Of a stretch of DNA of 64,000 bases, positions 33,181 through 39,671 are shown one piece after another. Both the position numbers and the translations under genes were made by a program. The notes beneath the pieces are model-generated. The model worked only from the letters and a program-made list of their open reading frames with translations. It was not told where the DNA came from and did no database searches. Numbering within the stretch: position 1 is the stretch's first letter; every line of letters starts with the position of its first letter. Origin of the DNA: Calditrichota bacterium (GTDB taxonomy: Bacteria > Calditrichota > Calditrichia > RBG-13-44-9 > J042). Location: NCBI GenBank assembly GCA_013150955.1, contig JAADJD010000004.1:1-64000 (forward strand), given 5' to 3'.

Positions 33181-33222
33181 CCAAAATCCAGAATCTGAAG
33201 GGATGGATCGGCCCTTACTTAA

Positions 33223-33368
33223 ACTCAAATTATGCATGAGACCGCGAATTACACGAATTGACACAAATAAAAATAATAAAGTACATTGGATTATATCCGG
33301 ATAAAATTTTGTTTCGGTGTTTATTCGCGTTTTATTCGTGTGATTCGCGGTTTAATGCATTACTTGGG
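33223..33368 (+). repeat. Dispersed TIR element, copy E (internally shortened)
   Basis: The left arm (AAATTATGCATGAGACCGCG) and the right end (TGATTCGCGGTTTAATGCAT...TTGGG) are present, but about 20-25 bases around the GATTTTGTAGATATTTTTTG segment are missing. It lies between the TPR cluster and pepF and explains most of that 319-base gap. Confidence 0.75.
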
Positions 33369-33499
33369 TTTAATTCGTGGATTTCACGAATTCCCTGGAT
33401 GGAAAATCAAGGTTCTCAATGTTTCCAGAAAAATTTCGGCGTATATTTGGAGGTTTAATCGTGGTTTTGGAACGTTGAATAAAAACTCTGGAGGCCTGA

Positions 33500-35348: not shown

Positions 35349-35512
35349 CCCAAATGATGCTTTAGACCACGAATTGCACGAATTAACACAAATAAAAACA
35401 ATAAAATCCATTGGATTAGATCTGGATGAAAATTCGTTTCGAGGTTTATTCGTGATTTTGTAGATATGGTTTGGTTTCATTCGCGTGATTCGTGGTTTAG
35501 TGCATTATTGGG
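35349..35512 (+). repeat. Dispersed TIR element, copy F
   Basis: It starts CCCAAATGATGCTTTAGACC immediately after the pepF stop and ends TAGTGCATTATTGGG. The core reads GATCTGGATGAAAATTCGTT. The position suits use as a transcript 3' end. Confidence 0.8.
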
Positions 35513-35550
35513 GTAATTCGGACAACTTCGTCCGAAAAATTCTTTTCATA

Positions 35551-35579
35551 TTGATTCTGATGCCCAAAACCCGTAAAAT
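35551..35579 (+). promoter_or_regulatory. Promoter candidate of the copper locus
   Basis: TTGATT (35551-35556) is followed after exactly 17 bases by TAAAAT (35574-35579), which matches five of six -10 positions. The predicted start site near 35586 gives a short leader to the ATG at 35601. No operator is recognisable. Confidence 0.5.
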
Positions 35580-35600
35580 AGGTCAGGTTGAAACGGGTAG

Positions 35601-36002
35601 ATGAGGCGGCGTTTGATGCAACTGTTACGGTGGACATTGATCGTTTTATTTTTTGTGGTATTCAGCGGTCTGCTTCAGTTTGTGGTGCTGGCCGCTCCGC
35701 AAAGTCATTCGCCCCATCCGCACGGAAGTTGCCACTGTGGCTGCAGCACCAGCACCGATACGGGATGTGATGGCGGGTGCTGTGGTGCGTCAACAACCCC
35801 GTTTCAGGTCGGCATCTGTTCACTAACCTGTAGTTGCAACACCGAATCCCCTCAATTTCTTTCCACAGGATTTAAATACATTTTGCCCCGGGGCGTTCAG
35901 CTGTGGGTGCTTCCGGGGAATTATCGATGGAACTGGCCCATATCTTTGTTAACCCCTCGAAACACACCAGAACCTCCTGAAAAGCCTCCTGAATTGGCCT
36001 GA
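35601..36002 (+). CDS. Cys/His-rich exported or membrane-anchored peptide, probable metal binder
   Basis: The 133-residue protein has a hydrophobic signal or anchor (10-31) and then a metal-binding-looking segment with His36, His39, His41, His45 and Cys44, 46, 48, 56, 60, 61, 73, 77 and 79. The C-terminus is Pro-rich. The Cys density (nine in 36 residues) suggests copper or zinc capture in the periplasm or at the surface. It is the first gene ahead of a FixH/YtkA-like lipoprotein and a copper-type TonB receptor, all on one strand. No family is recognised. Confidence 0.7.
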   Translation: MRRRLMQLLRWTLIVLFFVVFSGLLQFVVLAAPQSHSPHPHGSCHCGCSTSTDTGCDGGCCGASTTPFQVGICSLTCSCNTESPQFLSTGFKYILPRGVQLWVLPGNYRWNWPISLLTPRNTPEPPEKPPELA

Positions 36003-36304
36003 TCCAACCCGTTCACCCGAATCCTGTACCGGATTGTTCTGGATTCGGATTGATGTAGTGCGGTAGGTGTCCCGCGGAGAATCCCCGTACCGGTTGGGAT
36101 TTGTGCCGGGCGATCGGGAAAAGTACCGGATATCGCCACCAGCGGATGTCCACACATGCTCCATACTAAAGCAACTTTTCCGATGCCGGTGCTCCTGAAA
36201 GGAATCCCCTTCCGGTGAGATTTGTGGGACATGCTCGGCAAATGGTTGGGATTGCGCCTCCCGATTGTGGAGGTGAGGTCAGGTCAATATTCAGGAGGGA
36301 ATCA
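36003..36304. other. Leader region between the Cys-rich gene and the FixH-like lipoprotein gene
   Basis: This 302-base gap contains several short GC-rich self-complementary stretches but no gene on either strand that I can support. I checked for a cobalamin-type riboswitch and did not find the conserved box. It ends in AGGAGG in front of the lipoprotein ATG. Confidence 0.35.
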
Positions 36305-37102
36305 ATGATGAAAAACATTCGGTTTATTCTGCTGAGTACTTTGTTCATTGCTTTTCTTGCCAGTTGTACAAAAAGCACCACGGAAGTGGAACCCGAAGTT
36401 GATCCCACCGCGGATCTGCTGAAAATTGGAGAGGGCAATTTCTCCAGCACCACGGTTGAGATCTTTTCGGATGGTGAAATTGAGGTTGGCTATCAGCGAT
36501 TGTTCGTTCGGCTGAAGCAGGGCGGGGAAAAAGTGGTCACCCGCGCCCGTGTGGAAATCTTTCCGCTAATGGATATGGAAACGATGAAGCACAGCGCCCC
36601 CTATGAAAATCCCGAAGCGATCGTATCAGAGAATGGGCTGTTCGAAGGGGCGGTGGTGTTCATCATGTCTGGAAAGTGGATGGTGACCTTCACCCTGCAG
36701 AATCTGGAAAATGGAGACAGTGGGAAGGTGACGTTAACACTGGATGTTGCCGCCAGCCAGCGCGTGAAGAAGGTCACCGGAAGCGATAGTGCCACCTACT
36801 TTGTGACTTTGGTGGAGCCGCGTGCGCCCCGCGTGGGCATGAACGATTTCGAAATCACGGTTCATAAAAAAGAAAGCATGATGGCCTATCCAGCGGTAAC
36901 GGATGTGGAGACAACCATTACGCCAACCATGCCATCCATGGGGCATGGGTCGCCCAATAATGAACATCCGGTGCACCAGGGCAGGGGGCATTATCGCGGA
37001 AAGGTGAATTTTACCATGTCCGGTGCCTGGCGCGTTGATCTGCAGATTCAGCGTGGCGGACAGCCCCTGTGTGAGGTGGCGTTTGACATCCAGGTGCCAT
37101 AA
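36305..37102 (+). CDS. Lipoprotein with two FixH/YtkA-like domains
   Basis: The 265-residue protein has a lipoprotein signal with Cys21 in the lipobox FLASC. Two similar Ig-like halves follow. The first has MDMETMKH (89-96) and FEGAVVFIMSGKWMVTFTL; the second has MPSMGHG (209-215), HPVHQGRGHY and KVNFTMSGAWRVDLQI. Met/His motifs before an MSG-W strand are typical of FixH/YtkA domains, which are linked to copper delivery to cytochrome oxidase and similar enzymes. AGGAGG lies seven bases before the ATG, ruling out the longer frame from 36215. It lies 170 bases ahead of the TonB receptor. Periplasmic copper handling is the likely role. Confidence 0.82.
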   Translation: MMKNIRFILLSTLFIAFLASCTKSTTEVEPEVDPTADLLKIGEGNFSSTTVEIFSDGEIEVGYQRLFVRLKQGGEKVVTRARVEIFPLMDMETMKHSAPYENPEAIVSENGLFEGAVVFIMSGKWMVTFTLQNLENGDSGKVTLTLDVAASQRVKKVTGSDSATYFVTLVEPRAPRVGMNDFEITVHKKESMMAYPAVTDVETTITPTMPSMGHGSPNNEHPVHQGRGHYRGKVNFTMSGAWRVDLQIQRGGQPLCEVAFDIQVP

Positions 37103-37272
37103 ACAGGCTTCCCAATCCAACGGTTGGGTTGTGTAGGGAACAGCCCCATGCCCGTCAGGCCCATGCCTGGTGGGCGTGGGAATGCATAGATCGGAGGCCC
37201 TGGCCGGTGGCGGTTCCTGGAAGGAACGACTACCGGGGGAATATTCAGAACTGGAAGGAGAAAGGGAGAATC

Positions 37273-39507
37273 ATGATTCGACGGCAAGTGCGATGGATCG
37301 TTATCACCTGGGTTATCCTGTGGTCAGGGTTTCTGGCCCCGGCCGTTGCGCAGGCGGCGGCTACCATCCGGGTGGCTGGTCAGGTGCTGGATCGGGATTC
37401 GAAAACTCCGGTGCCGTTTGCGAATGTTCGCGTGGTGGGAACGGTTCAGGGAACCGGTTGCGATTCCACCGGGCACTTCTGGCTGAAACTGGCTCCTGGA
37501 AAATACCAGCTGGAGATTTCCGCCCTGGGTTATCAGACGGCCTTTGTGACCCTTCGGGTGGGATCGGATACCCCGGCTTATGTCCAGGTGTGGTTGACAC
37601 CCCAGGCCATTCATTATTCTGAGGAGGTGGTGGTCTTCGGAGAAATGGAGCGTCAGCCGGAACCGCGTTTGAATAGCACCGAGGCGGTGATGGAGCAGGT
37701 CGAGGGGGTGACGCTGATTAAACGGGCCAATTTTGCCTGGGAACCTTCCCTGCGCGGGATGCAGGCCGCACAGGTTGGGATTGTCATCGATGGGATGAAA
37801 ATCTTCAGCGCCTGTGTGGATCGAATGGATCCGGTCACCGCGTACGTGGAAGTGGAAAACCTGCAACAATTGGACATCCGGAAAGGAGGGTTCGATCTAA
37901 CCCTTTCCCCGGCGATTGGAGGCACCATCAATTTAATTACCAATAAACCCGATTTCGAAAAGCCCTTTTCCTTCCGAACCGAAACCGGGCTGGAGACGGC
38001 GGCACGATTGCGGGTGTTGCGGAGCGAGATCAATTTCGCGCGCCGGTCGTTTGCGGTGCGGGGCACCTTTTCGATCAAACATGCAGGTGATTTTCTGGCG
38101 GGAGAGGGACGGCGTATTGCGGGATCGGGCTACCGTAAGTACAATTTTGATATTAGCTTGGCCCGCCGGTGGGGATCGCGTCATCGGCTGGAGTTTTCCC
38201 TGATTGGCGATGAGGCCCGCGACATCGGATATCCCGTTTTGCTGATGGATGCCCGGAAGACCTCTTCCCGCATCGTCCGCCTGGAGCATTTCTGGCGTTT
38301 CAATGGTGGCTGGTTATCTTCCATCCGCGCCAAGGTTTACGCCAATCGGATCAATCACTGGATGGATGATTACGAGCGGGATGTCACCCGCCGCAGGGTG
38401 ATGCCGAACATGTACATGCCCATGTTTGGTCAGACCCGCACCATGGGGTGGTTGGAGGAGATCCGTTTCCAGAAGGGAAGGCACGTGCTGAATGTCATTC
38501 TGGATGCCTACCGCCTGTGGGCGTTTGCCGATATGCAGATGATCGGTCTGGAGCCGGGTTCATCCCCTGCCTATCTGGTGAACCTGGGGGACGTGGTTGA
38601 TCAGCAAATGGCGGTGGCACTGGATTATAGCTGGATGATCCACTCGCGGCTCTGGTGGCGCACCAATTTTCGGGTGGATGTTTCCCGACGGGATGTGACC
38701 AGTCCCTACGGGCGACAGGCACTGACGGGATTCTGGAATCGGGAAAATTTCCGGCGCCATTATGCGACCCTGGGCATCAGCACTTCCCTTGAATATCAAC
38801 TGGATCGTTACCGGAGTATCCGATTATCCCTGGCCAGCGGACAGCGGATGCCCTCGCACATGGAGAATTATGGTTTCTTCCTTTATAATATAGTGGATGG
38901 GTATTTTTATACAGGCAATCCGGATTTGAAACCCGAATGGAGTCGTCAACTGGAAGTGATGCTGGCGCAAACGGCCTCGCGGTTCAGTTATCGGCTGGTG
39001 GGATTTGTGAACGACATCCGGAACTACATCAGTGGTACCATTCAGTCCCCGGAGTTTAAGGTGTACACCAACCTCTCTGCCGTTTATCTGGTGGGGGGAG
39101 AGTTTCGGGGAGAATTCACGTTATCTCCCTCCATTGCTGCCAGCTGGCGATTGGCCTATGTTTACGGGCAAAATCGGACTTTCGAAGAACCGCTGCCGTT
39201 CATTCCACCGCTGGAGGGTTTATTCACGATTTCTTATGATCACAACGGCCTCTGGCTGGCGGTGGAATCGCGTTTTGCAGCCCCTCAGCGACGCATTGCT
39301 TATCGCACCACTCTGGAAGATGAGACTCCCGGATTTGCCATCGTGAATGTTCGCGGGCAGTATGCGATTCATCCCCGGGTGACCCTCCGGTTTGGGGTGG
39401 AAAACGTGCTGGATCGGTATTATCATGAGCATTTGAGCGTGAATAATTTTCCCGCAGTGGGACGGAATGTTTACCTGCTGGTAGGCATACGCATCCCGGG
39501 TAAATGA
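37273..39507 (+). CDS. TonB-dependent receptor with copper-receptor (OprC/NosA-type) motifs
   Basis: The 744-residue outer-membrane receptor has a signal peptide (1-29), a carboxypeptidase-regulatory-like domain (about 32-110), a plug (about 115-225) and a beta-barrel ending NVYLLVGIRIPGK. In the plug, IDGMKIFSACVDRMDPVT contains CxxxM (Cys181, Met185), and in the barrel RINHWMDDYERD contains HxM (His362, Met364). A Met-rich loop with Met377, 380, 382, 384 and 391 follows. CxxxM plus HxM is the known copper site of OprC. The start at 37273 is supported by the upstream AAGGAGAAAGGGAG. It should import copper with TonB energy. Confidence 0.88.
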   Translation: MIRRQVRWIVITWVILWSGFLAPAVAQAAATIRVAGQVLDRDSKTPVPFANVRVVGTVQGTGCDSTGHFWLKLAPGKYQLEISALGYQTAFVTLRVGSDTPAYVQVWLTPQAIHYSEEVVVFGEMERQPEPRLNSTEAVMEQVEGVTLIKRANFAWEPSLRGMQAAQVGIVIDGMKIFSACVDRMDPVTAYVEVENLQQLDIRKGGFDLTLSPAIGGTINLITNKPDFEKPFSFRTETGLETAARLRVLRSEINFARRSFAVRGTFSIKHAGDFLAGEGRRIAGSGYRKYNFDISLARRWGSRHRLEFSLIGDEARDIGYPVLLMDARKTSSRIVRLEHFWRFNGGWLSSIRAKVYANRINHWMDDYERDVTRRRVMPNMYMPMFGQTRTMGWLEEIRFQKGRHVLNVILDAYRLWAFADMQMIGLEPGSSPAYLVNLGDVVDQQMAVALDYSWMIHSRLWWRTNFRVDVSRRDVTSPYGRQALTGFWNRENFRRHYATLGISTSLEYQLDRYRSIRLSLASGQRMPSHMENYGFFLYNIVDGYFYTGNPDLKPEWSRQLEVMLAQTASRFSYRLVGFVNDIRNYISGTIQSPEFKVYTNLSAVYLVGGEFRGEFTLSPSIAASWRLAYVYGQNRTFEEPLPFIPPLEGLFTISYDHNGLWLAVESRFAAPQRRIAYRTTLEDETPGFAIVNVRGQYAIHPRVTLRFGVENVLDRYYHEHLSVNNFPAVGRNVYLLVGIRIPGK

Positions 39508-39508
39508 A

Positions 39509-39671
39509 CCTAAATAATGCATGAAACCGCGAATCACACGATTGAAACCAAAAAATATCCACGAGATCTTGAATATATCCCGAAACAAATTTTCATCCAG
39601 ATATCGTCCCATGTTCTCTTATTTTTATTTATGTTCATTCGTGTAATTCGTGGTTCTAATGCATAATCTGA
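39509..39671 (-). repeat. Dispersed TIR element, copy G (reverse orientation)
   Basis: It begins two bases past the TonB receptor stop (CCTAAATAATGCATGAAACC) and ends GCATAATCTGA. With the 9-bp hairpin at 39684-39708 it makes up the structured part of the gap to the convergent S9 peptidase gene. Confidence 0.78.

Follow-up and report, generated by a model that had tools for sequence, protein, structure and literature searches.

In this study, we analyzed a 64,000-nucleotide (nt) stretch of a Calditrichota genome (contig JAADJD010000004.1, positions 1 to 64,000), referred to below as the window, and in it three genes on the plus strand. Our comparative analysis suggests that they form a copper-scavenging operon controlled by its own first gene, which would act as a nascent copper sensor in the manner of CruR; we put the probability of this reading at about 0.78. 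Gene 1 most likely encodes a regulatory upstream open reading frame (uORF) and not a copper carrier. The genes are separated by gaps of 302 nt (gene 1 to gene 2) and 170 nt (gene 2 to gene 3):

35601 to 36002, plus strand: gene 1, a Cys-rich open reading frame (ORF) of 133 amino acids with a Pro-Pro (PP) tail, from the ORF list, conserved ahead of receptor loci; an ATG at 35616 is an alternative start
36305 to 37102, plus strand: gene 2, a lipoprotein of 265 amino acids with two YtkA/CrdA-like domains (PF13115) and lipobox Cys21
37273 to 39507, plus strand: gene 3, a TonB-dependent receptor of the OprC/NosA type, predicted to bind copper, 744 amino acids

The proposed regulation rests on four features in and behind gene 1:

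35730 to 35837, plus strand: codons of Cys44 to Cys79, the proposed copper-sensing Cys cluster, from the spacing analysis
35982 to 35990, plus strand: codons of K128-P129-P130, the proposed arrest motif, three residues before the stop, with P129 and P130 invariant
35953 to 36030, plus strand: a nearly unstructured bubble with a C-over-G excess of +26.9 points, the proposed Rho-utilization (rut) site, spanning the gene 1 end
36003 to 36304, plus strand: the 302-nt intergenic stretch, the proposed zone of Rho-dependent termination

In the window peptide, P129 follows C77 by 52 residues and C79 by 50. The 14 divergent members of the Cys-cluster type all have their last conserved Cys 50-52 residues ahead of [K/R/H]PP, and the stretch in between is not conserved. 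These members have further Cys residues about 66-77 and 81-88 residues before PP, and other Cys-to-PP spacings occur in the related pair G008/G015 and in the Bacteroidota-type peptides described below. PP stood no more than eight residues from the C-terminus in 19 of 21 family members, compared with about 4% of other ORFs (family members removed), and most family stops follow the terminal [K/R/H]PP by 2-7 residues. CruR likewise has Pro-Pro a few residues from its end and a fixed Cys-to-PP distance: CXXC is at 90-93 and RAPP at 139-142, which puts the two Cys 51 and 48 residues ahead of the first Pro, and insertion of five residues strongly reduced copper control (PMC9426467).

We next consider the mRNA. 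The bubble over the stop of gene 1 is one of three such C-over-G peaks on the plus strand of the 64 kb, and it is the least structured segment of the region (predicted -5 to -6 kcal/mol, compared with about -20 around it). The ends of 18 family genes had a median C-over-G excess of +23, whereas 154 ends of other genes from these loci had +9 (p=5.5e-11), and the excess was retained when the PP codons were masked (p=2.8e-8). No intrinsic terminator was found in the operon gaps, and Rho is encoded in the genome. In CruR, the C-over-G bubble that starts from the ORF end serves as the Rho-utilization site (PMC9426467); a long downstream gap and available Rho are also common to the two systems. When the operon was compared with Rfam to look for metal or cobalamin riboswitches, no family passed the threshold; DicF matched within gene 1 below threshold, which we attribute to chance.

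The preliminary description of this DNA had instead seen gene 1 as a possible new component of the copper route. On that view, its product would be exported, resemble a metallothionein, and buffer copper or carry it between receptor and lipoprotein. The nine Cys and four His residues that it placed behind a hydrophobic segment are all present, and the hydrophobic N-terminal segment is visible on inspection of the sequence. Many Cys and some His in such a position would suit a carrier, as would the constant linkage of gene 1 to copper receptors and the purifying selection on the peptide (nonsynonymous rate dN 0.023 versus synonymous rate dS 0.113, in one close pair). However, a carrier role explains none of three features: the PP placed 2-7 residues before most stops, the Cys-to-PP ruler that is constant to two residues across unconserved sequence, and the rut-like mRNA spanning the stop. 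The 302-nt gap and the several receptors that lack the peptide also speak against it. We therefore favor a regulator, for which the terminal PP, the ruler and the unstructured C-over-G mRNA over the stop argue, and consider a carrier unlikely. An export signal is not required in CruR (PMC9426467). Of the three-gene route from surface to periplasm proposed earlier, the receptor and the lipoprotein were upheld; the Cys-rich gene was not, as its features point to a regulatory nascent-chain sensor.

In the model that we propose, a ribosome translating gene 1 at low copper would stall at the C-terminal KPP and shield the rut site, and with the stalled ribosome over it RNA polymerase would continue into genes 2 and 3. 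With PP at the active site, the Cys cluster would sit just beyond the ribosome tunnel. When copper is sufficient, Cu(I) would be bound by this cluster of the nascent chain and the stall relieved; once the ribosome has gone, Rho could load on the bared C-rich stretch and end transcription before gene 2, within the 302-nt gap. The receptor would import ionic copper across the outer membrane, and the lipoprotein would take it over. From there, the copper would go to cuproenzymes, probably nitrous oxide reductase first.

The response might also run in the opposite direction, with copper promoting the stall or slowing export and so switching genes 2 and 3 on; the operon would then be a copper-induced system for tolerance or loading. 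There is a precedent in CutF of Rhodobacter capsulatus, a related leader with a CxxxC motif and a proline-rich C-terminus, which has to be located in cis upstream of the copper gene and activates the downstream gene with copper (PMC9973294). The YtkA-like domain of gene 2 also resembles CrdA, a copper resistance determinant. However, CutF activates a multicopper oxidase via a stem-loop over its ribosome site, whereas the window operon has a long 302-nt gap with a C-over-G bubble and no such stem-loop over the next ribosome site. The gene downstream here encodes a TonB-dependent importer, which like bfrG is expected to be off in copper excess, so that copper repression is likelier than copper induction. 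We regard the opposite direction as improbable and retain copper-relieved stalling as the preferred mechanism.

The closest counterpart of gene 1 is CruR, the DUF2946 uORF of the CruR-bfrG/crtA operon of Bordetella pertussis (PMC9426467), since both are short Cys-containing ORFs of the exported type that head the operon of a copper TonB receptor. Unlike CruR, gene 1 has no PF11162 match, ends in EKPP and not RAPP, and carries CxC plus seven more Cys instead of one CXXC. The operons differ as well: in the window a YtkA-type lipoprotein gene comes next, there is no PepSY_TM gene, the receptor is OprC-type and not CrtA-type, and the gap after the leader is 302 nt compared with 162 nt for CruR. 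The RAPP/RGPP arrest peptides (ApdA, ApdP and SecM-like) share with gene 1 a basic residue and Pro-Pro near the end of a small secretory protein and a place ahead of regulated genes, TonB and copper genes among them (PMC12992588). In gene 1, unlike in these peptides, the basic residue directly adjoins PP. If the second Pro sits in the P site at the stall, the basic residue would, at a guess, occupy the place of Arg in RAPP/RAPG. These comparisons suggest that gene 1 functions like CruR while lying outside DUF2946 by the tests made.

Short ORFs with His/Cys motifs that end in NRAPP or NKAPP were also seen in this phylum (L078 and L080 on contig 57 of G004; L083:4634-4924 of G005), one with a weak DUF2946 match. 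They adjoin a TonB receptor or a zinc-type ATP-binding cassette transporter and may be RAPP-type leader peptides that respond to zinc.

As the preliminary description had supposed, the Cys-rich peptide lies outside recognized families: neither gene 1 nor its relatives had a Pfam or NCBIfam match above noise. PF11162 (DUF2946) did not match gene 1 or its relatives and gave nothing over the cut-off in 40 genomes of the phylum. Membership of gene 1 in DUF2946 was ruled out on this ground and because it has CxC and CC clusters instead of CXXC, and no RAPP. The family name HYC_CC_PP was considered and dropped, as neither a paper nor a match was found for it.

The family is tied to the receptor. Except in G007, every Calditrichota locus with a receptor of the gene 3 type and enough upstream sequence has a short Cys-rich ORF upstream, placed directly before the lipoprotein gene or, where there is none, before the receptor gene; in G007 and G003 the Cys-rich gene is on another contig than the receptor locus. 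Counted by genome, 14/16 receptor genomes have the Cys-rich gene, and the remaining two are cut by contig ends. The family profile (A4), run on the 40 genomes, had no match at E<=1e-4 in the 24 that lack such a receptor. G020 was found by inspection because its peptide is of the Bacteroidota type, out of the profile's reach. A weak match in G003 (E=0.08) was accepted for its Cys pattern and HPP tail; another in G032, which covers only 29 positions, was not. The members from G003 and G007, absent from profile building, both have CxC clusters and both end in HPP. The relatives are only 13-38% identical to the window peptide, yet both prolines of the tail and four columns of Cys never vary. The preliminary description had named neighbors unlinked to copper-type receptors as the outcome that would count against it; our survey instead found the neighbors tied to such receptors.

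In addition, a Cys-rich HPP-tailed peptide is encoded on contig 366 of G007 (L129:1468-1851), at the end of a nitrous oxide reductase (nos) cluster. It is followed by a thioredoxin-like gene (TlpA/AhpC-TSA type) in place of the receptor gene. This neighbor suggests that the leader also controls other copper-related genes.

We then determined whether the receptor has the copper site ascribed to it, a Cys-x3-Met in the plug and a His-x-Met in the barrel, followed by a Met-rich loop (MPNMYMPM). All three were present, the first two at these codons:

37813 to 37827, plus strand: C181-x3-M185, plug half of the predicted copper site, aligned with CxxxM of OprC and invariant in alignment A2
38356 to 38364, plus strand: H362-x-M364, barrel half of the predicted copper site, aligned with HxM of OprC and invariant in alignment A2

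The phmmer alignment to OprC that had been called for paired C181/M185 with the CxxxM of OprC and H362/M364 with its HxM. All four residues are invariant in the 28 receptors of A2, which are 25-60% identical to the window receptor; the receptor of G002, one of the 16 receptor genomes of the phylum, has Gly instead of C181. Pfam identified a plug (PF07715), a barrel (PF00593) and an N-terminal carboxypeptidase-regulatory-like domain. The best NCBIfam model was TIGR01778 TonB-copper (E=4.5e-56), and OprC was the closest solved structure by sequence (E=1.6e-29). The receptor was also modeled with AlphaFold2, as the preliminary description had proposed (predicted local distance difference test, pLDDT, 87; predicted template modeling score, pTM, 0.81). 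In a Foldseek search with this model, places 1-28 were all OprC chains (E=6e-47; template modeling (TM) scores 0.72/0.84), so that the predicted fold is OprC-like. This fold and the alignment of all four residues with the OprC site speak against residues lying apart, the other outcome that the preliminary description had named as adverse. The window receptor shares with OprC of Pseudomonas aeruginosa (PMC8610252; PDB 6fok) the fold, the plug and barrel, and CxxxM/HxM at aligned positions. The two are about 21% identical in the structural alignment, and the window receptor differs in its extra N-terminal carboxypeptidase-regulatory-like domain, its HWMDD(Y/F) surroundings and its adjoining gene for a lipoprotein partner. 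By sequence and model, gene 3 is a divergent OprC/NosA-type copper receptor with predicted copper binding.

Heme and zinc TonB receptors match the fold too, with lower scores, and the ligand could in principle be zinc, heme or a chelated metallophore, with the copper residues there by coincidence. We consider this very unlikely in view of the four invariant ligands, the run of OprC chains at the top of the structure search and the linkage of the receptor to nosZ, NosL, YtkA and MbnP genes. A copper receptor is retained here.

Gene 2 had been described as a lipoprotein with two FixH/YtkA-like halves, and YtkA (PF13115) indeed matched two stretches of it (E=2.6e-21; 76.5 bits against a cut-off of 25.9). 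M89, M91, H96, M121, M209, H214 and M238 are invariant in an alignment with 13 relatives (A3). The best Foldseek match of its model (pLDDT 91) was CrdA of Helicobacter pylori, which aligned over a single domain (TM on target 0.80). Like CrdA (PDB 9ll2) and the YtkA-like copper proteins, gene 2 has an all-beta domain with Met/His metal residues; unlike them, it has two such domains within one lipoprotein. Its pairing with gene 3 is kept in Calditrichota, in related metagenome-assembled genomes, and in Ignavibacteria-type and Bacteroidota genomes. By sequence and model, the gene 2 product is a lipoprotein with double YtkA/CrdA-like Met/His domains.

NosA, a copper receptor on which nitrous oxide reductase depends, has its setting in nos-linked loci. 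We found nosZ in 13 of the 16 phylum genomes with a receptor of the gene 3 type and in 7/24 without one (p=0.0015; 40 genomes), a test that counts related genomes as independent and is indicative only. The Cys-rich gene and a receptor come directly after the nos cluster in G002 and G008, and in loci of the Kapabacteria/Ignavibacteria type the gene order is nosZ, nosL, YtkA, receptor. The genome of the window has its own nos cluster on another contig, including nosZ, with neighbors that read as Rrf2, nosD, nosY, nosL and a cytochrome c. The OprC fold and site, the CrdA-like lipoprotein and the nos association together make a copper route from the outer membrane to the periplasm, formed by receptor and lipoprotein, well supported. 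The nitrous oxide reductase cluster (L079; contig 61, 40000-56000) appears complete and includes an Rrf2-type regulator.

A related form of the peptide occurs in Bacteroidota. One Bacteroidota-type query (CINKDKPEMxCxGKC ... F[H/R/K]PP) had matches in 89/396 Bacteroidota genomes. The 28 loci inspected have the PP tail, mostly F[H/R/K]PP, with 2-7 residues to the stop, and the members with measured spacing have three conserved Cys at nearly fixed distances from PP, about 80/70/66 or 84/74/70. Directly downstream there is typically a gene for MbnP, for a YtkA lipoprotein or for a receptor that carries the copper motifs CPNRM and HLM; a Pfam scan covered ten of these downstream genes. In L089 and L091, the peptide precedes a Met-rich outer-membrane-type protein with a Phenol_MetA_deg match, possibly a further copper gene.

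We think it somewhat probable that Calditrichota, Bacteroidota and related phyla hold a large, undescribed class of copper-sensing arrest peptides that is unrelated in sequence to DUF2946. The class would have its own [K/R/H/Q]PP motif and Cys clusters at 50-52 and 66-88 residues, and would head operons of OprC-type receptors, YtkA lipoproteins and MbnP. At distances of 50-52 and 66-88 residues, the sensor would have just cleared the ribosome tunnel or the translocon. A 2025 survey of RAPP/RGPP peptides reported that Cu-related uORFs are lacking in groups such as Bacteroidota (PMC12992588); a [K/R/H]PP class without RAPP/RGPP would escape such a search. A literature search, with subscription papers and preprints outside it, found no description of a [K/R/H]PP copper leader class. 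What is new here is the proposed leader with a different candidate stall motif in groups without a prior report, whereas the receptor and lipoprotein types were already known. So far, copper regulation by nascent peptides is known from a handful of proteobacterial examples. If another class exists that is unrelated to these in sequence and occurs in about a fifth of the Bacteroidota genomes sampled and in copper/nos loci of Calditrichota, metal sensing in cis on the ribosome would be widespread, and searches for RAPP/RGPP would have overlooked it. Such a class would also explain how Calditrichota and Bacteroidota may match copper uptake to demand, such as that of nitrous oxide reductase, and would allow many 'hypothetical proteins' that are orphan and Cys-rich to be reannotated. 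The stall motif and the sensor distance are directly testable.

Several observations weigh against the reading of gene 1 as a copper-sensing leader and of gene 3 as its copper receptor. The motif is KPP/RPP/HPP, with the basic residue immediately before PP, and not RAPP/RGPP; because Arg is reported to be irreplaceable in the studied SecM/RAPP-type peptides (PMC12992588), the model is least secure in its stall motif. The case for the proposed stalling, copper response and Rho termination consists of sequence anatomy, and codons for Pro, Ser and Thr outside the masked PP account for part of the C richness at family gene ends. L067 and L068, whose receptors are 49% identical to that of the window, have the lipoprotein and no Cys-rich PP-tailed ORF upstream, and the nosZ-nosL-linked loci are without the peptide as well. 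The Bacteroidota form has the other Cys spacing (about 80/70/66) and gaps of just 44-298 nt, so that Rho may not be the controlled step there. Finally, the receptor did not reach the curated TIGR01778 cut-off (190.9 bits versus 472.45 required); since this model was nevertheless the best of all, the receptor is taken as a divergent OprC/NosA-type relative.

Upstream of gene 1, a good promoter had been claimed. The site matches the consensus at 9/12 positions, and such sites are at chance level across this stretch of DNA (4 versus 4.2 in shuffles), so the claim did not stand:

35551 to 35579, plus strand: promoter-like site TTGATT-17-TAAAAT before gene 1, from a consensus scan

The operon is flanked by what reads as an M3-type oligopeptidase gene on one side and a convergent S9-type peptidase gene on the other. 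A dispersed intergenic repeat of about 140 nt (...ATTCGTG...ATTCGTGGTT...) stands on both sides of the operon and recurs in the window:

33200-33380, 35370-35515, 39520-39665 and elsewhere in the window: copies of the dispersed repeat, with 10 matches of ATTCGTG[G/T] per strand

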